Origin: a virus
Length of the DNA stretch: 64,000 nucleotides
Direction: 5' to 3' (one strand)
Virus record (IMG/VR): IMGVR_UViG_3300024239_000014
Span: 124,001-188,000 of that record
This document shows positions 1 through 29,931 of this stretch, piece by piece. The notes beneath the pieces were generated by a model. It was not told the DNA's origin, ran no database searches, and saw nothing but the letters and a program-made list of their open reading frames with translations. The position numbers and the translations under genes were made by a program. Position 1 is the first letter of the stretch; each line of letters opens with the position of its first letter.

Positions 1-2
1 AA

Positions 3-833
3 GTCGCTCTGGAAGGTTTCAAGGAAATGGCCAGCAAACTGGCCGAAACCCTGAAAGCTCTCTGGGCCAGAATGAAAAACATGCTGGTCGGCTTCTGGAA
101 GAAACTGACTGACTGGTCTGGCATCCAGATCAAGCGTGTTGCTGCGCTGAAGAAGAAAGTTGAAGCCGCCAAGCCGGTGAACGGTAAGGTCGACTCCACC
201 AAGCTGGCGGGTATTTCTTCGTTCGTTGGTGGTAACCTGTCTTCCAGCAACGCAGCGGGCGCTGCTGCCACGCTGGCTTCTGTTACTAACGAAATTCTGA
301 ACGGTTACGGCAAGAACCTGGTACACGCGTTCCGCGCCGTGGTCACTGCTGAAGGTCAGCAGTCTGACCTCCCCACGCTGTCCGTAAATCTCGGCACTAT
401 CACCGGTCTGAAGATTGTCGAAAAGGATGGTGCCTACGCCATCGAGACCGTTAAGACCGGCGAAGTCAAAGGTGCAGTACAGGTCGATAAAGCCGACCTG
501 GAGAAGATCTGTACTTCCCTGGAAGCTGCACTGAAGGCCGTTCAGGCCTACCGCGCGATCTGGAAGGAAACCGAAGGCGCCGCTGAAGCCGCGATCAAGG
601 CCGTTGAAAACTACGGCAAGAAGACCGAAGGCGAAGCTGCCGGTAGTGCTCTGGCCAAAAACATGGTTAGCGACACCAAGAAGGCAATGAGCGCTGCCAG
701 CAAACTGCCCGTCTCCTGGGGTAAGGTAGTGACCAACGGCACCAACGGCTTTATTAAGTACGTTGAAAAGGCCCTGAAAGCTACCGGCAAATCTCTCGGT
801 GAAACTGAAGGCAAAGAGCTCGCTACTGCCTAA
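3..833 (+). CDS. Inner-head (ejected) protein paralog, 5'-truncated
   Basis: The reading frame is open from the first bases of the window, so the true start lies upstream; the ATG at 27 is internal. The first visible residues (ALEGFKEMASKLAETLKALW) match the module found after the last processing site in the genes at 908 and 2388. That module is an LE-G-F-K-E cleavage-type site followed by an amphipathic helix ending in LWARM. The rest is Ala/Lys-rich and helical. In phiKZ-like phages such proteins form or fill the inner body of the capsid, are trimmed by the prohead protease and are injected with DNA. The role is inferred from this architecture and the tandem paralogs. Confidence 0.75.
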   Translation, partial: VALEGFKEMASKLAETLKALWARMKNMLVGFWKKLTDWSGIQIKRVAALKKKVEAAKPVNGKVDSTKLAGISSFVGGNLSSSNAAGAAATLASVTNEILNGYGKNLVHAFRAVVTAEGQQSDLPTLSVNLGTITGLKIVEKDGAYAIETVKTGEVKGAVQVDKADLEKICTSLEAALKAVQAYRAIWKETEGAAEAAIKAVENYGKKTEGEAAGSALAKNMVSDTKKAMSAASKLPVSWGKVVTNGTNGFIKYVEKALKATGKSLGETEGKELATA

Positions 834-2387: not shown

Positions 2388-3389
2388 ATGTTGAAAGATT
2401 TTCTGAAGGCTAACGGCCTGGCTCTGGAAAGCGAAGAACTTCTGCCGGAAGTAATCCAGAATGATGTGCAGGCGGTTGTTGATGATGTTGAAAAAGCCAA
2501 CACCAGCGCCGACGAAGTCGTGGCTACCGACGACGCAGCCGTCGCCCTCGAATCACTGGTAGCGACCCTCGAGTCTTGCGGTGGCGCCAAGACCGCACTG
2601 GAGAAACACCTGGTTATGACTCAGGCTGCCATGCTTTACAAGAGCATGGGTCTGGCCGCTCCGGTTGTACCCGCTCTGGAGTCTGCTGATTCGTTCGAGC
2701 TTTCCCTGGAAGGCTTCAAGGAAACTGCGCAGAAAGTCGTGGCCGCCATCAAAGCTGCCTGGGAAAAGCTGGTCAAGATGTTCAAAGATCTGTGGGCGAG
2801 AATCGGCGATACCGCCGGTCGGCTGCACAAAGCATTGTCAGCGAAGTTGAAGGAAACCGAGAAAACAACGGTATCTTTCAAAGCCCCAATGTTGAATTTA
2901 GGTACTGAAACGGTAAATGACAGCAACCTTAACGAGGTGTTTACCCGGAACGACATCAAAGAAACCGTCGAGTTCTGCGACAACTTCATGCGCGATCTTT
3001 CGGAAAAGCTGAAAGCTGGAAAGTCTGACACCGTAGGTCAAGAGATTGCAGACCTTGATAAGAAGCAAGCCAACCAGGCTAGCGAGACGAAAGAAGTTAC
3101 TTTCGAAGTAACTGTCTCGAAAGCAGGGCCGGTAATTCTGAATCAGCTCAACCAGATTTCGAAGTACCATCGTGATTGGGCCGGTCGTAATGCTCGTAAA
3201 GAAGCCCTTCTGAATGAATATACAGAAGCGCTCAAGAAAAGTTCAATCGATTCTGACATGTACCCAGAATGGTTTCTTCGCAGGGCAGCAAACGCTATCA
3301 TGAAAGCCGCCAAAATGGAAGAACGTACCATGACCATATGTTCTACTCAGACTATTCGCGTCGCGAACAAGTTCATGGCTACTCTGTAA
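2388..3389 (+). CDS. Inner-head (ejected) protein paralog with N-terminal propeptide
   Basis: A 333-residue protein preceded by AAAGGAAA. The N-terminal ~105 residues are acidic and carry repeated cleavage-like sites (LALES, VALES, ATLES, PALES, LSLEG). The last, LSLEGFKETAQKVV, opens the shared amphipathic module that runs to the LWARI segment. The mature part is Lys-rich and helical. This is the phiKZ-type inner-body precursor architecture: the prohead protease cleaves after Glu in S/A-x-E. It gives the clearest view of the module that is truncated at the left edge and diverged at 6234. Confidence 0.75.
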   Translation: MLKDFLKANGLALESEELLPEVIQNDVQAVVDDVEKANTSADEVVATDDAAVALESLVATLESCGGAKTALEKHLVMTQAAMLYKSMGLAAPVVPALESADSFELSLEGFKETAQKVVAAIKAAWEKLVKMFKDLWARIGDTAGRLHKALSAKLKETEKTTVSFKAPMLNLGTETVNDSNLNEVFTRNDIKETVEFCDNFMRDLSEKLKAGKSDTVGQEIADLDKKQANQASETKEVTFEVTVSKAGPVILNQLNQISKYHRDWAGRNARKEALLNEYTEALKKSSIDSDMYPEWFLRRAANAIMKAAKMEERTMTICSTQTIRVANKFMATL

Positions 3390-6157: not shown

Positions 6158-6233
6158 TATCAAATTGACTCGTTTTATATGATCTTGCCTTTCTTATTTC
6201 CATAATTTGCGTTACCGTTAGAGGATGAACGAC

Positions 6234-7337
6234 ATGCTCAAGGACCTACTTGCGCTTCGAGGTATTTCGACTGAGTCGGAAGAGCTCGAGCAACCTTACG
6301 ACATTGAAGCTGTGCATGATGCCATTACGTCAGACGTGGCTGACACCGAAACTGCAGAAGGCGTGGTTTCCACTCTCGAATCGCTGGTAGTAGTTCTTGA
6401 AAGCCAGTCGACGCTCTCCGATCGCGAAATCAAATACATTCGCTATGCTGCTGAGGCTGAAGTCTCGTGCCACCTTTTCGGTAAGGCCAAGCCACTGGCG
6501 CTGGAATCAGACGAACCGGCAGACCGTGAAGAAGTCAAGTCTGGCATCGGTGACAAAATCAAAGCCATTGCCAAGACCGTGGTAGACTTTATCCGTTCCA
6601 TTTACGCCAAAATCCGTGGATTCATTGCCAGCCTTGTGGACGGTTGTAAACGCCGTATCGCAAGAGCGCGTGACATGATCCAAAAGCTGCGCGCTAAGGG
6701 CGATAAAGACCCTCAGAACGATCCGGTCGCCAAAGAAGATGCTGGGGTACCCGTTCACAGCTACACACTCGTCATCGGCGATAAGCCGCACGAATACGAG
6801 CACATGCTCAAGGCAGCCAACGATACGGCCAACCACGTTCTGGACGTCAAGAAGTACGAGGCGGTCGTGAAGACCTACGTGGAACACGATCAGCTTGGTG
6901 AACACGCCCTGCCGTTGATTTCACCAATGCAAGCACGTTACCTGCCTGGTCGTCCGACCATTGATTACGATGAGGATAACAAAACCCTGAAGTTCCGGTT
7001 GACGGAAGACATGTTTGATCACGCCGCAGTAGGTGTACCGATGATGGACACCCGTACGCTGATTCGACTGACTGACCTCATTCAGGATATCTCATCCCGG
7101 GTTGGTGAGTTTGGTGATTCGTGGCGTCAGTTTGATCACTACGTTGAACATCAACTGGTGGAGATGTTGCACCACGTCGCCAATGCCGCGAAGGGTGAGA
7201 GTATCGATGTGAAGTACCGTAAGGTGCGCAACCTCTTTACCAGCTTTGCGCAAGCTCCTCGCAGTTTTGGTTTGTACGTGTTGCGTTTGGCTGACGCCTC
7301 GTATGACTATGTGAAGTACTGCTACAGTCGGTATTGA
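6234..7337 (+). CDS. Inner-head (ejected) protein paralog with propeptide
   Basis: The ATG at 6234 gives MLKDLLALRG, matching MLKDFLKANG and MLKELFAQSG of the paralogs, and has GAGG nine bases upstream. The ATG at 6225 overlaps the SD and is rejected. The protein has 367 residues. The N-terminal ~110 residues are acidic with cleavage-like sites (STESE, STLES, VVLES, LALES). An amphipathic module follows (VVDFIRSIYAKIRGFIASL), then a basic stretch and a long mixed C-terminal region. It is an island on the plus strand between minus-strand early units, probably a relocated late gene of the same family. Confidence 0.75.
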   Translation: MLKDLLALRGISTESEELEQPYDIEAVHDAITSDVADTETAEGVVSTLESLVVVLESQSTLSDREIKYIRYAAEAEVSCHLFGKAKPLALESDEPADREEVKSGIGDKIKAIAKTVVDFIRSIYAKIRGFIASLVDGCKRRIARARDMIQKLRAKGDKDPQNDPVAKEDAGVPVHSYTLVIGDKPHEYEHMLKAANDTANHVLDVKKYEAVVKTYVEHDQLGEHALPLISPMQARYLPGRPTIDYDEDNKTLKFRLTEDMFDHAAVGVPMMDTRTLIRLTDLIQDISSRVGEFGDSWRQFDHYVEHQLVEMLHHVANAAKGESIDVKYRKVRNLFTSFAQAPRSFGLYVLRLADASYDYVKYCYSRY

Positions 7338-19001: not shown

Positions 19002-19358
19002 TCAGGTTTCGCTGCCGACGTAAACGGTTTCCACCGTCAGGTCGAAGTTCCGGCTGCGGTTACTGAAAATCGCCCGCTTACCGTTCTCGGTGTCATCGAA
19101 CTCGTGACGCGAGATTTGGCTTGCGATTTCAAGGAACGCAGCATGGCAGGGTCGCACATACGGTTGGTTTTCTGCCAAGTTCTGACCTGGGACGACCTGT
19201 TCTGCCAACAGTTTCAGTTTGGCGACCAGGCGGTCTTTGGTCTTACCGGGCGGGAATTCGCCGGTAACGTCGTACGATGATTGCCAGAAGCCATTGTCAT
19301 TGAGGCCGACAGTTTCACCCTTGAAGTTGATGGTGACCTGATAAATCGGATTAGACAT
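19002..19358 (-). CDS. Paralogous hypothetical protein (pair member 2)
   Basis: The second ATG (19358) is chosen because AAGGAG sits seven bases upstream; the first ATG is one base from the SD. The 118-residue product is the tandem paralog of the previous gene, sharing the GEFPPG and NQPYV motifs. About 35-40 percent identity is judged by eye. Duplication within the phage is the simplest reading. Confidence 0.7.
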   Translation of the reverse strand: MSNPIYQVTINFKGETVGLNDNGFWQSSYDVTGEFPPGKTKDRLVAKLKLLAEQVVPGQNLAENQPYVRPCHAAFLEIASQISRHEFDDTENGKRAIFSNRSRNFDLTVETVYVGSET

Positions 19359-19378
19359 TCTCATTCTCCTTGGAAGTT

Positions 19379-21337
19379 TTACAAACGAACACCACCGCCA
19401 CGCTGACGCGGTTTGAAGTTAAACTGGTTCACCGAAGCCACCAGCTCCTGAGCGGAACCCGTCAACACTTCAGAGCCCTTCCCTACTTGTGTCAGGCTTT
19501 CAGCGTTGGCATCGGACATCGCATTGATGCGGTTCATGTTCCGGGTGATTTCTTCAGCCACATGAGCCTGCTCTTGAGCCGCAGTGGCAATCATGGTGGA
19601 TTGGTCGGCCATCTGACGGACATTGCTGACGATGTCAGACAGCGCGCCAGAAACCTGCACCGCGCCTTCTTTGGTATCCTGCACTGTTTGACGGACAGAA
19701 TCCACGGCACGAACCGCGTTATCAGTCACCTGCTGCAGGGCTTCCACTGTACCGCGAATGTCAGCGGTAGATTGCTGAGTCTTCGCAGCCAGGCTACGGA
19801 CTTCGTCAGCCACCACCGAGAACCCGCGACCCGCTTCACCGGCGCGCGCTGCTTCAATCGCAGCATTCAATGCCAGCAGGTTGGTCTGGTCGGCAATTTG
19901 ATTAATTGCCTCAGCCGCACGTCCAATGGACACCACCTGGTCCACCAGCAAGCGCATTGCAGCTTCAGTCTGCGTGATGTTTTCCACGCCGCGTTCTGAC
20001 CCACGTACCGTCTGCTTGACGATGACGGCAGCATCGTTTACCAGCTTCTCCACACTACCGGCTAAGGCGCATGAGGTTTCGGTATTACGAGCCACTTCCA
20101 GTACCGTCTGTTCCATCTCCGTGATGGCTGTGGCGGCGGATGCGATCTCCTGTGCGGCAGTCGATGTATTGGCAGCGGTCTGCGTGGCGATTGAGCGATT
20201 CTTCTCCGCCGTCACCTTCACTTGGTCGGCGACGTCCGACACTGTGGCCATCTGACGCCGCAGGCTGGCCAGCGTTTGGTTCAGCGACGCCTTGAGCTCC
20301 CCCAATTCAGCTTCAAACTCCGCATCCACATCCCAGAGGTCGCCGCGACTCACGCGTTGCAACTCTGCTTGAATTTTACCAAGTGGTGAGGTCACCTGGC
20401 GTTTCAGGACAGCGATGACTGTAAAGGCAACTGCTATCATGGCGACTACGAAAATACCGCCGAATAGCTTTACCAACAACCACCCTTGAGTGAAGAGTTC
20501 ACTGCCGACTTCAGCAGACACCAAGAGCCAGCCCAGACCTTCGAGTTCCGATTGCTGGTACTGGTAATCCGGTGACGTACCTTGTTTCCTGCGGACATCG
20601 TAAAACGGCGCTTCTTTCCCGACCCACTGTTTGTTCTTCAGGTCGTAAACGTAAATACCGCCAGACTTGCCAATCTTGACATTCGACAAGGTAGTTACCA
20701 AGTCGTTCAAGGATTGGGTAATGTCCTGGCCTACGAAGGTAGCACCGACCACGTTGCCGTAGGCGCTAATCGGGCTGTAGGAGACCACGTACGGCGTTCC
20801 GAACAAGTACGTGATACCCTGGTAGTTCTGATTCGCCAGAAGTGCAGGATAAGCCGGAGATTCACGGCTGAGCATGGTACCCACGACCCGTTTACCGGAA
20901 GTATCCTTCAAGCTGGTACTGATGCGGATAAAGTCATCGCCATCGCGGACCACCAAGGTGCTCACCACGGAATCATCCATGAGTTCACGGAAACGGTCGA
21001 CGTAGAATTCGTCATTATTCATCCGTTCGCCATTGACGGCCATGATGGGTGTTTGGACGCCGTTGACGTCTTCCTTGGTTGCTTGGTTGACAATAGCAGT
21101 GTCAATTTCGATGAAGTTCCTGAACAGGACCTCAATCTTCTTGGCGCTATTGGCCATGGAGAACTCGTAGGTCTTAATCAGGTCACGTGCCTGGTCTACG
21201 AGCTGTTGTTGGGCTCCATGGGTTTCTTCTTTGAGTGACGTTTCCGTCACCTGGTACGATACTGCGGCGATAGCGCCGAGTACCAGTATCAGCACAGGGA
21301 TGACCCGTGCCAGGATTTTACTGCTAATTTTAGTCAC
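19379..21337 (-). CDS. Methyl-accepting chemotaxis protein (complete chemoreceptor)
   Basis: A 652-residue protein starting at GTG, with GGAGG six bases upstream. TM1 is at ~12-28. A long periplasmic region at ~30-284 resembles the Cache3-Cache2 fusion sensor (VSTLVVRDGDDFIRIS; VVSYSPISAYGNVVGATF). TM2 is at ~285-312, HAMP at ~313-365 and the MA signalling domain at ~370-640. The conserved hairpin tip is IADQTNLLALNAAIEAARAG then GRGFSVVADEVRSLA at ~481-516, which contacts CheA and CheW. All parts of a working receptor are present, without a CheR-binding pentapeptide at the C-terminus. In bacteria these receptors steer flagellar movement; a copy in a phage genome is exceptional. It shares 8 bases with the upstream gene. 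Confidence 0.95.
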   Translation of the reverse strand: MTKISSKILARVIPVLILVLGAIAAVSYQVTETSLKEETHGAQQQLVDQARDLIKTYEFSMANSAKKIEVLFRNFIEIDTAIVNQATKEDVNGVQTPIMAVNGERMNNDEFYVDRFRELMDDSVVSTLVVRDGDDFIRISTSLKDTSGKRVVGTMLSRESPAYPALLANQNYQGITYLFGTPYVVSYSPISAYGNVVGATFVGQDITQSLNDLVTTLSNVKIGKSGGIYVYDLKNKQWVGKEAPFYDVRRKQGTSPDYQYQQSELEGLGWLLVSAEVGSELFTQGWLLVKLFGGIFVVAMIAVAFTVIAVLKRQVTSPLGKIQAELQRVSRGDLWDVDAEFEAELGELKASLNQTLASLRRQMATVSDVADQVKVTAEKNRSIATQTAANTSTAAQEIASAATAITEMEQTVLEVARNTETSCALAGSVEKLVNDAAVIVKQTVRGSERGVENITQTEAAMRLLVDQVVSIGRAAEAINQIADQTNLLALNAAIEAARAGEAGRGFSVVADEVRSLAAKTQQSTADIRGTVEALQQVTDNAVRAVDSVRQTVQDTKEGAVQVSGALSDIVSNVRQMADQSTMIATAAQEQAHVAEEITRNMNRINAMSDANAESLTQVGKGSEVLTGSAQELVASVNQFNFKPRQRGGGVRL

Positions 21338-21809
21338 GGTCTTCCTCCGGGATGCGGATGGGATTTACAAGGTAATCCAGCAGCAATGCTCGATTAACCT
21401 TTACGTCGGTGGGGTCGAGACTGAGGTCTATCAGAGACGGTACTCGAATAGCTACCTCATGTCGACCAGTCCAGGTTACAATTCGCGCCAATGGGATGTA
21501 GCGCAAGTTAGATGGAAGAGACTGGATGATTAAACCCGACCCCTTGCAGCGATAGCGGATTTCATACCGCACCAGCTCCACAGTATTCGTCAGTACTCGC
21601 TTAAGAGTCAGGACGTTCATGGGGTCTGAGACCAGTATCAACTTCGTCAGCGGCGGCGTGAGCCGAATGTCATTGAGCAGGAGGTTATGGACAGCACATT
21701 CCACAATGACACGAAAGTCCTGGAGTTCATGCCAGAAGAATTCGCGTAATGCCGGAAGGTACTGCTTTTCCAAGTCGTCTGTTCGCACGATGAAAACGGT
21801 ATCGGTCAT
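21330..21809 (-). CDS. Hypothetical protein coupled to the chemoreceptor gene
   Basis: A 159-residue soluble protein whose stop lies inside the first codons of the chemoreceptor gene (8-base overlap), so translation is probably coupled. The start has only a weak SD. It has alternating strands and helices, with no CheW, CheR or response-regulator motif seen. Whether it works with the receptor is open. Confidence 0.65.
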   Translation of the reverse strand: MTDTVFIVRTDDLEKQYLPALREFFWHELQDFRVIVECAVHNLLLNDIRLTPPLTKLILVSDPMNVLTLKRVLTNTVELVRYEIRYRCKGSGLIIQSLPSNLRYIPLARIVTWTGRHEVAIRVPSLIDLSLDPTDVKVNRALLLDYLVNPIRIPEEDRD

Positions 21810-21872: not shown

Positions 21873-22028
21873 TCACTGTGTGATGTCGCAGTCGCAGTCC
21901 TCTTCGATAGAAGCGGCGGGAGACATTGACAAGACATCGGTGCTGTGGAGTACTACGCAGCCAATGATAGTGACGGCCAACAACACAATAGCCAGAAGGG
22001 TGGAAAGGGTGAGAGTGCGCTTAGCCAT
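21873..22028 (-). CDS. Small early membrane or lipoprotein-like protein
   Basis: A 51-residue protein starting MAKRTLTLSTLLAIVLLAV. The basic N-terminus and one hydrophobic segment (~5-25) end in IIGC, a poor lipobox. An acidic Cys-containing tail follows (EEDCDCDITQ). AGGTAA precedes the ATG, and an early-type promoter lies 33 bases upstream, which makes it a strong real-gene candidate despite its size. Function unknown. Confidence 0.65.
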   Translation of the reverse strand: MAKRTLTLSTLLAIVLLAVTIIGCVVLHSTDVLSMSPAASIEEDCDCDITQ

Positions 22029-22100: not shown

Positions 22101-22130
22101 CAAAAAAGAGGAGGGGGCTTCCCTCCTCTT
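22101..22130 (-). terminator. Rho-independent terminator, minus strand
   Basis: AAGAGGAGGG-ggct-TCCCTCCTCTT type stem with an A-run on its left side, giving U6 on the minus strand. It closes the unit ending with the 34-codon gene at 22133. Confidence 0.8.
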
Positions 22131-27909: not shown

Positions 27910-28209
27910 TTACACGCTGATCGGAAACTCGATCTTGCCTTGGTGGTTGTAATCGATCAACTCGATGTCCTCCCACTTGATGTCAAAGATCGACGTACCG
28001 ACCGGCACCTTGAGTCTCAAGCGCGGTCCTTCGGTCGGAGTGCGTGACAGCTGTTCTTCCACACCAGCAAACTGGTTGCTGTAGATGTGGACATCGCCGC
28101 CCGTCCAGATAAACTCACCAGGCGCATAACCGAGCTGGTTAGCGATCATGATGGTCAAAAGAGCATAGCTGGCGATGTTGAACGGCACACCGATTGGAAA
28201 ATCTGCACT
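27910..28209 (-). CDS. thyA: Thymidylate synthase, 3' exon
   Basis: Encodes the C-terminal 99 residues. It opens SADFPIGVPFNIASYALLTI and continues GEFIWTGGDVHIYSNQF, both hallmark ThyA segments (folate and dUMP site). Joined after ...YQR of the upstream exon it restores an uninterrupted ThyA. The exon boundary is set just after an intron-terminal G, as in group I introns. Confidence 0.9.
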   Translation of the reverse strand, partial: SADFPIGVPFNIASYALLTIMIANQLGYAPGEFIWTGGDVHIYSNQFAGVEEQLSRTPTEGPRLRLKVPVGTSIFDIKWEDIELIDYNHQGKIEFPISV

Positions 28210-29310
28210 CAGATCTGTTCCTACGACTCGTGACGTCGCAGCGCACCATTACGTGCTGCCGGTATCACTACCGGTGTCGGTATACATCACAGTCTCCGTC
28301 CTTAGAGACTCTCTCCTGTTTCGGTTCCACTTAGAACCTACTCTACTCGCTTCTCGCTGTTAGTCCTGCGAGGCTTTCGATATACTCTGGGCATTAAGCG
28401 TAAGTCCAGTCTTTAAACCTTTCGCTTTTAGAAGCAATTCTGAAGACCACAGTTGCCGGACAAACGTCAAACTGCCGTGCTGCTTCAGTTACAGAATCGT
28501 AAACACATCCGTCGATTACGACTTTGCGTAGGTTAGTGGGCAAGATGCCTAATCTCTTCTCAGAAAGACGCTCTTTGGTTTCCTGACTGTGTTTTTTACC
28601 GAAGAAAGGATTTTTATCTCCTATCCGTAAAATACCCTTACGGCGGAGTTTTTCCTTCGTTTCTTCAGATAGTGATCTACCCTTACTCCAGGGTGTTCTA
28701 CCTATCCCGGCTAGTCTTAAAGCCTCGATAACGTGCTGAGGTCTTTTCTTACCGTAGTTATGGTTTAATGGACCACTCCTACCGTAGACTTTTCGCCGTT
28801 CTTCTTCGGTTAATGTTTTTGCGAAATCAAGTAGCCTATTTTTAGCTAATTCCTTGATCTCAGCACAGTCGGGATGGTTTGAGTAGGTATCGCCACCACT
28901 CGCACCATCTAGGATGTTGTACACGCTTTTGTTAGCTAGGCCTTCTTTAATGAGTTCTAGCTCGCGTGCTCTAGCATCCTCTTCGGTGGAAAATTGTGCT
29001 ACTTGGAGGATGTTCCAATCCGCCATGTTGCCAGTCCAATCATCCAGCATCTTTCTATTGTGGTGGGTTCCGTTAGCCAATTCCCTAAAATGTCTTTTTA
29101 TCCTTAGGGAAAAGTTTCCAGTACTACCGTAATAGGCTTTCTTCGTCCGCACGTTGTAAAGACAGTATACTTTATATTGCATGTAAACCTCTATTAAAAG
29201 GTAGTCCATACAATAAGTCGCTCTTAGCAACGGATAGCGTCTTTTCGACATTTCCCGTTTTAAGGAGAGTTATTCGACTAGGGTCACCCCTAGAAGGCGC
29301 AGTGTGGTTT
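28210..29310 (-). mobile_element. Group I-type self-splicing intron with GIY-YIG endonuclease
   Basis: 1101 bases interrupt the thymidylate synthase frame. The upstream exon ends in ...CAGCGT (U before the splice site) and the intron ends in ...CAGATCTG, fitting the U/G rule of group I introns. Joining the exons at these points gives YQR-SAD in frame. A hairpin CTAGGGGTGACCCTAG follows the 5' splice site, and ~180 structured bases follow the endonuclease gene. The internal catalytic core was not folded here. The arrangement parallels the T4 td intron with I-TevI. Confidence 0.85.
28394..29182 (-). CDS. GIY-YIG homing endonuclease (intron-encoded)
   Basis: The ATG at 29182 has AGAGG five bases upstream; earlier in-frame starts lack an SD. 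The product has ~262 residues. The GIY-YIG domain is at ~1-90 (YKVYCLYNVRTKKAYYGST, the catalytic Arg in LRIKRHF, then ELELIKEG and YNILDGASGG). NUMOD3-type modules follow (HNYGKKRP, NPFFGKKHSQETKERLSE), then a C-terminal NUMOD1/HTH DNA-binding element (YDSVTEAARQFDV). It cuts intronless thyA alleles to spread the intron. Inserted in the intron outside its folding core. Confidence 0.9.
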   Translation of the reverse strand: MQYKVYCLYNVRTKKAYYGSTGNFSLRIKRHFRELANGTHHNRKMLDDWTGNMADWNILQVAQFSTEEDARARELELIKEGLANKSVYNILDGASGGDTYSNHPDCAEIKELAKNRLLDFAKTLTEEERRKVYGRSGPLNHNYGKKRPQHVIEALRLAGIGRTPWSKGRSLSEETKEKLRRKGILRIGDKNPFFGKKHSQETKERLSEKRLGILPTNLRKVVIDGCVYDSVTEAARQFDVCPATVVFRIASKSERFKDWTYA

Positions 29311-29931
29311 ACGCTGATACAATTGGCAACTCAATCTCAGCGTCGGAATACCAGCCTCGTCCAACTCCTGCACGGTCGGCATGAAGTCTTCGTCTTTGTA
29401 CAGACGCCACTCCACCACCCGCTCTTCGTGGGTCATTTCTTCCACGATGAACTGGAACAGACAGTGGCACGGAGCCAGTGCCATATTGCCGTTGGCGACG
29501 TTCAGATGGGGAAGAATTGATTCGTCCGGCAGTTCAGCTGGATTCCAGGCAGTTACAACGTGCCGCCGCGAAAATGGTTTTTGATTCAGCTGGGTCAGCA
29601 GTTCCGTAATCTGGTCTACCCCGTTGAAATCGCGCCACTGGGCGCCGTAGATAGGACCAAGACGCCCTTCGGCATCTGCCCAGTCGTCCCAGATGTGGAC
29701 ACCCTTGGCGACTAATTCGTTGTTGTTAGTGCTACCGCGGAGGAACCAAAACAGTTCTTCTGCCAGGCCGCGGAGGAAAACCAGCTTCGTGGTCAGGAGC
29801 GGGAACCGTTGAGCAGACAGGTCAAAGCGCATCTGAGCACCGAAGACTGAACGAGTGCCGGTACCAGTACGGTCTTTCTTGTCGCGACCGGCGGTGTAGA
29901 TGTGGCGCATGAGTTCGAGGTATTGTTTCAT
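29311..29931 (-). CDS. thyA: Thymidylate synthase, 5' exon
   Basis: Encodes the first 207 residues, from [20 protein letters not shown] to ...RLSCQLYQR. Shows the [12 protein letters not shown] loop, [14 protein letters not shown], the catalytic Cys in [10 protein letters not shown], and the [11 protein letters not shown] segment. With the 3' exon the enzyme has 306 residues, ~40 longer than E. coli ThyA, the extra lying between the catalytic Cys segment and RLSCQLYQR. It converts dUMP to dTMP with methylene-tetrahydrofolate and feeds phage DNA synthesis together with the thymidylate kinase at 45403. Confidence 0.93.

Follow-up and report, generated by a model that had tools for sequence, protein, structure and literature searches.

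Bacterial chemoreceptors with a Cache_3-Cache_2 sensor include formate receptors. PacF of Pectobacterium atrosepticum and McpF/Mcp26 of Pseudomonas syringae belong to this Pfam sensor family, and altering R142, T145 and T158 of PacF affects how it binds formate (PMC12501870). A formate-bound sensor is also seen in 8py0, a chemoreceptor structure from Oscillibacter ruminantium, whereas 6s18, a bacterial aromatic acid chemoreceptor of the PcaY type, has a different sensor domain from the protein described here. In phages, a full methyl-accepting chemotaxis protein (MCP), composed of dCache_1, HAMP and MCPsignal domains, is encoded by the Vibrio jumbo phages vB_VmeM-Yong XC31, XC32 and MS31, where it is annotated as hypothetical. 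Among the papers searched, none links methyl-accepting chemotaxis proteins to jumbo phages, and chemotaxis goes unmentioned in a review of jumbo phages from 2026.

In this work we analyzed a window of 64,000 nucleotides, corresponding to positions 124001–188000 of a 249,640-base virus record, that contains an MCP gene with a Cache_3-Cache_2 sensor. Within its receptor family, which is a known one, the phage MCP is unremarkable; what is new is its carriage by a nucleus-forming phage, together with a predicted formate site. A receptor able to connect to the chemotaxis array of the host would be a cargo unlike the known metabolic genes taken up by phages, and the phage may alter both the sensing and the swimming of the cell it infects. 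With a predicted ligand, the question whether a virus redirects the infected bacterium becomes directly testable.

A complete chemoreceptor gene

An earlier note on this DNA, made from its letters without database searches, had described a complete MCP with all receptor parts present. Both statements hold. The minus-strand open reading frame has a GTG start at 21337 and no internal stops, the Pfam domains Cache_3-Cache_2, HAMP and MCPsignal all score above their cut-offs, and two transmembrane helices and the signaling hairpin complete the receptor:

19379..21337, minus strand: the complete gene of the MCP, encoding 652 aa from a GTG start (open reading frame and Pfam matches)
21248..21316, minus strand: transmembrane helix 1, residues ~8–30 (hydropathy; also a helix in the structure model)
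20618..21247, minus strand: periplasmic Cache_3-Cache_2 sensor, residues 31–240 (Pfam, 148 bits, above cut-off)
20876..20926, minus strand: predicted formate-site residues R138 (20924–20926), T141 (20915–20917) and T154 (20876–20878), spaced as R142/T145/T158 of PacF
20402..20470, minus strand: transmembrane helix 2, residues ~290–312 (hydrophobic segment)
20258..20407, minus strand: HAMP domain, residues 311–360 (Pfam, 27 bits; cut-off 25)
20135..20164, minus strand: methylation-type motif STAAQEIASA, residues 392–401 (sequence motif)
19517..20011, minus strand: MCPsignal domain, residues 443–607 (Pfam, 130.2 bits against a cut-off of 34.6)
19787..19906, minus strand: hairpin tip predicted to contact CheA/CheW, residues 478–517 (near-invariant positions kept)

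The tip is the best-conserved part of the protein. Among signaling positions with at least 90% conservation in 112 MCPs, 32 of 34 are kept, including N491, E495, R498 and G500. In the whole record the window protein alone gives an MCP-signal match. Its structure model is moderate (pLDDT 68, pTM 0.34), and whole-chain fold matches are hence weak evidence.

Sensor domain and predicted ligand

The closest solved structure of the sensor is the formate-bound 8py0 (E 2e-16 over about 115 residues), which is found by the fold search as well. The distal Cache modules are homologous, and in the alignment with 8py0 the residues R138, T141 and T154 of the phage MCP fall on R, T and T. Unlike the phage receptor, 8py0 is a single bacterial sensor domain. 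The same residues show an R-x2-T…T spacing identical to that of R142, T145 and T158 in PacF (PMC12501870). Since the nearest structure is formate-bound and the triad is spaced as in PacF, our leading prediction for the ligand of the distal Cache module is formate or a small carboxylate resembling it. The triad occurs throughout the family (10–11 of 11 sampled relatives) and thus indicates a ligand at the family level rather than proving formate. The sensor also keeps most other columns conserved among its bacterial relatives, for example Y187 and P189 besides R138 and T141. In contrast to PacF and McpF, the receptor is phage-encoded, its formate site is predicted, and its second, membrane-proximal Cache module is short or diverged, with the Pfam match covering profile positions 4–217 of 299. 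The likely ligand class is an addition to what the earlier note had offered.

Predicted array coupling and adaptation

The signaling domain aligns with that of the 6s18 receptor over 277 residues without a gap, and we count about 20 heptads per arm from the tip. The heptad register is hence compatible with this receptor class, and, given this alignment and the conserved signaling positions, the phage MCP should fit the host array. A search directed at CheW found no CheW-domain protein encoded by the phage, so that the receptor would depend on its host.

The C-terminus of the phage MCP, ending in ...NQFNFKPRQRGGGVRL, is devoid of an NWETF-type pentapeptide. This absence had been correctly noticed before, together with the proposal that the receptor may be adapted poorly or be insensitive to adaptation; the latter is not supported, given the methylation-type motif at residues 392–401 and the existence of Cache-type receptor families without the pentapeptide (PMC7390727). 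Only about 10% of chemoreceptors possess it, and it is described as absent from families whose sensors are not of the Tar type (PMC7390727). A missing CheR pentapeptide is thus normal for Cache receptors, and nothing in the sequence suggests abnormal adaptation.

The phage genome and the gene neighborhood

The record ends in a 131-bp direct repeat (130 of 131 positions identical, with the mismatch near the edge) and has 233 predicted open reading frames, 74 of which match Klebsiella phage Eowyn and 61 Vibrio phage Yong XC31. Among the Eowyn homologs are RNA polymerase subunits, the PhuZ tubulin (E 1e-49) and the protein of the nuclear shell (E 4e-28); the nvRNAP matches phrog_2943 (E 1e-140). 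Because of these PhuZ, shell and RNA polymerase homologs, the genome is, by its gene content, that of a nucleus-forming, phiKZ-like jumbo phage. The MCP lies in an accessory stretch of about 60 kb (109–169 kb of the record) that holds few conserved genes and is bordered on both sides by core phiKZ-type genes. Its GC content of 0.546 compares with a median of 0.516, and GC is uniform along the record. That its codon use resembles that of the neighboring phage genes, as proposed earlier, agrees with its rank of 43 among the 86 large open reading frames of the genome. The surrounding features are:

22101..22130, minus strand: intrinsic terminator, 10-bp stem followed by a T-run, ending the preceding unit (−18.5 kcal/mol, z −3.7)
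21873..22028, minus strand: open reading frame of 51 aa, small putative membrane protein or lipoprotein at the head of the unit (sequence; no Pfam match)
21330..21809, minus strand: upstream open reading frame of 159 aa, without assigned function, its stop overlapping the MCP start by 8 nt
19002..19364, minus strand: downstream open reading frame of 120 aa, without assigned function, with an AGGAGA-type ribosome site, 14 nt after the MCP

The 8-nt stop/start overlap suggests translational coupling of the 159-aa frame with the MCP. The neighboring open reading frames tested have no known relatives, and Rfam gave no match in the window.

Chemoreceptors in other phages

The earlier note had tied its proposal to the presence of the gene in further phages, and this was found in part: MCPs exist in the three Yong phages and in a 437-kb viral contig, but the 65 relatives of phiKZ type that an RNA-polymerase alignment detected in viral contigs contain no MCP above the cut-off. 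The closest of these relatives, 59% identical in RNA polymerase, lacks an MCP and shares almost nothing with the accessory stretch, so that no empty site can be mapped. Single-protein or two-row queries against the viral contigs returned no relatives. When the tip was searched as a DNA pattern, the matches listed were mostly short contigs, plus the 437-kb contig. In a set of 50,697 phage records, no jumbo phages other than Yong XC31, XC32 and MS31 had a convincing MCP.

Yong XC31 is phiKZ-like, as is the window phage. However, its MCP has a dCache_1 instead of a Cache_3-Cache_2 sensor, its signaling domain groups with a Vibrio receptor, and its position in the genome differs. The gene, annotated as hypothetical, is located at MK308674.1 207397–209229 (locus L072:8705–10537) in an isolated phage whose host is Vibrio mediterranei. 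The third phage MCP (552 aa, L217:8927–10585) is encoded on the 437-kb viral contig IMGVR_UViG_3300031133_000383 (G001), which is unrelated to the window phage. Like that of the window phage, it combines HAMP and MCPsignal domains within a very large phage contig; it has no Cache match, though, and the contig has no phiKZ-type nvRNAP match and 31% GC. This contig is rich in tRNAs and matches phage families lacking assigned function very strongly. The family phrog_8572, listed with unknown function, matches the HAMP and signaling part of all three phage MCPs and hence is an MCP family.

A single clade for the window, Yong and 437-kb MCPs was rejected (p 0.0005), which means at least two captures, whereas grouping only the window MCP with that of Yong was not rejected on the signaling domain (p 0.16). 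Three further candidates were set aside. The record of Acinetobacter phage MD-2021a (L071, CAKLQH020000002.1) looks bacterial and mislabelled, since its MCP is surrounded by bacterial cheW-tap-cheA, proS and an efflux pump; in a P1 record the MCP is transposon cargo beside a beta-lactamase; and that of Y13, a 4HB receptor, stands in an unverified record.

Origin and proposed role of the phage receptor

Among 369 gammaproteobacterial genomes, the nearest bacterial sensor is only about 31% identical, the order of one best-matching genome contained no better sensor match than this, and plasmid matches reached 26–39% identity as the best among those listed. In a tree of 60 signaling domains the window protein forms the longest end branch (2.02 changes per column) and has no supported sister. 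Recent contamination is thus ruled out; a large part of the divergence could be older than the capture. An assembly chimera or bacterial contamination as the source of the MCP is in our view hardly credible. Viral collections can indeed hold MCPs of host DNA, as in the MD-2021a and P1 records, but here we find the terminal repeat, uniform GC, phage open reading frames and core blocks on both sides, overlapping gene starts, and no near-identical bacterial gene. The earlier note had named a chimeric contig, or near-identity to one bacterial strain combined with absence from the other phages of the clade, as what would overturn its reading: the contig is not chimeric, as repeat, GC and flanking phiKZ-type core genes show, and the 31% of the best sensor match among the gammaproteobacterial genomes rules out near-identity. 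The gene could also be a recent passenger, i.e., a host gene caught by chance and not yet lost, from which the phage gains nothing. Its absence from all 65 relatives in viral contigs, including the closest one, would fit, but the missing close bacterial donor, the phage-like codon use, the coupled operon, the conserved functional sites and the occurrence of MCPs in other large phages make a passenger unlikely.

If the receptor does act, it might do so without sensing. MCP overproduction perturbs chemotaxis in E. coli, and the phage could overproduce its MCP to saturate or jam the host arrays as a CheA/CheW sponge, changing swimming or freeing energy. The tip being the best-conserved part agrees with such a role; a sponge, however, would work with a broken sensor pocket and no HAMP domain, yet both are conserved, and we regard it as fairly unlikely. 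The MCP might instead feed a non-flagellar Che-like pathway (type IV pili, c-di-GMP, surface sensing), for example altering surface receptors and blocking superinfection. Wsp-type systems use MCPs of a similar length class, and Cache sensors serve several outputs, but the nearest structural match of the signaling domain is a chemotaxis receptor, and such a pathway seems distinctly unlikely.

On balance, we lean toward a working receptor that was captured by a phiKZ-like phage and would join host CheA/CheW arrays. Several observations argue for this reading: the residues of the sensor pocket and of the CheA/CheW contact are kept despite strong divergence elsewhere; the open reading frame is intact, with all modules, in a phage operon of a complete phage genome; and MCPs are independently present in other large phages. 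The shortened membrane-proximal half of the sensor and the lack of the gene in 65 of 65 related viral contigs speak against it. A nucleus-forming jumbo phage would have taken up a bacterial Cache_3-Cache_2 chemoreceptor gene and kept it working. Made during infection, the MCP would be inserted into the host inner membrane and may join the host's CheA/CheW arrays alongside receptors belonging to its own length class. There its distal Cache module would bind formate or a related small carboxylate, with adaptation provided by CheR/CheB of the host. As a result, the chemosensory output of the infected cell would be altered, as a swimming bias or another Che-type output. We may tentatively speculate, without giving this much probability, that chemoreceptors were captured more than once by large lytic phages as a means to reprogram the chemosensory behavior of infected cells, and that here a response to formate steers or holds the cell where conditions or new hosts favor the phage.

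Other features of the window

Thymidylate synthase is apparently split (27910–29931, minus strand), its part at 29290–29931 corresponding to profile positions 1–168 of 266. This part is followed by a GIY-YIG/I-TevI-like homing endonuclease at 28394–29251; Rfam indicated no group I intron at the split gene. The 49 bp at 29252–29300 are 94% identical to Vibrio phage phiKT1028, in which the arrangement is the same. Divergent phiKZ-like internal head protein paralogs are clustered at window positions 1–833, 908–2188, 2388–3389 and 6225–7337.
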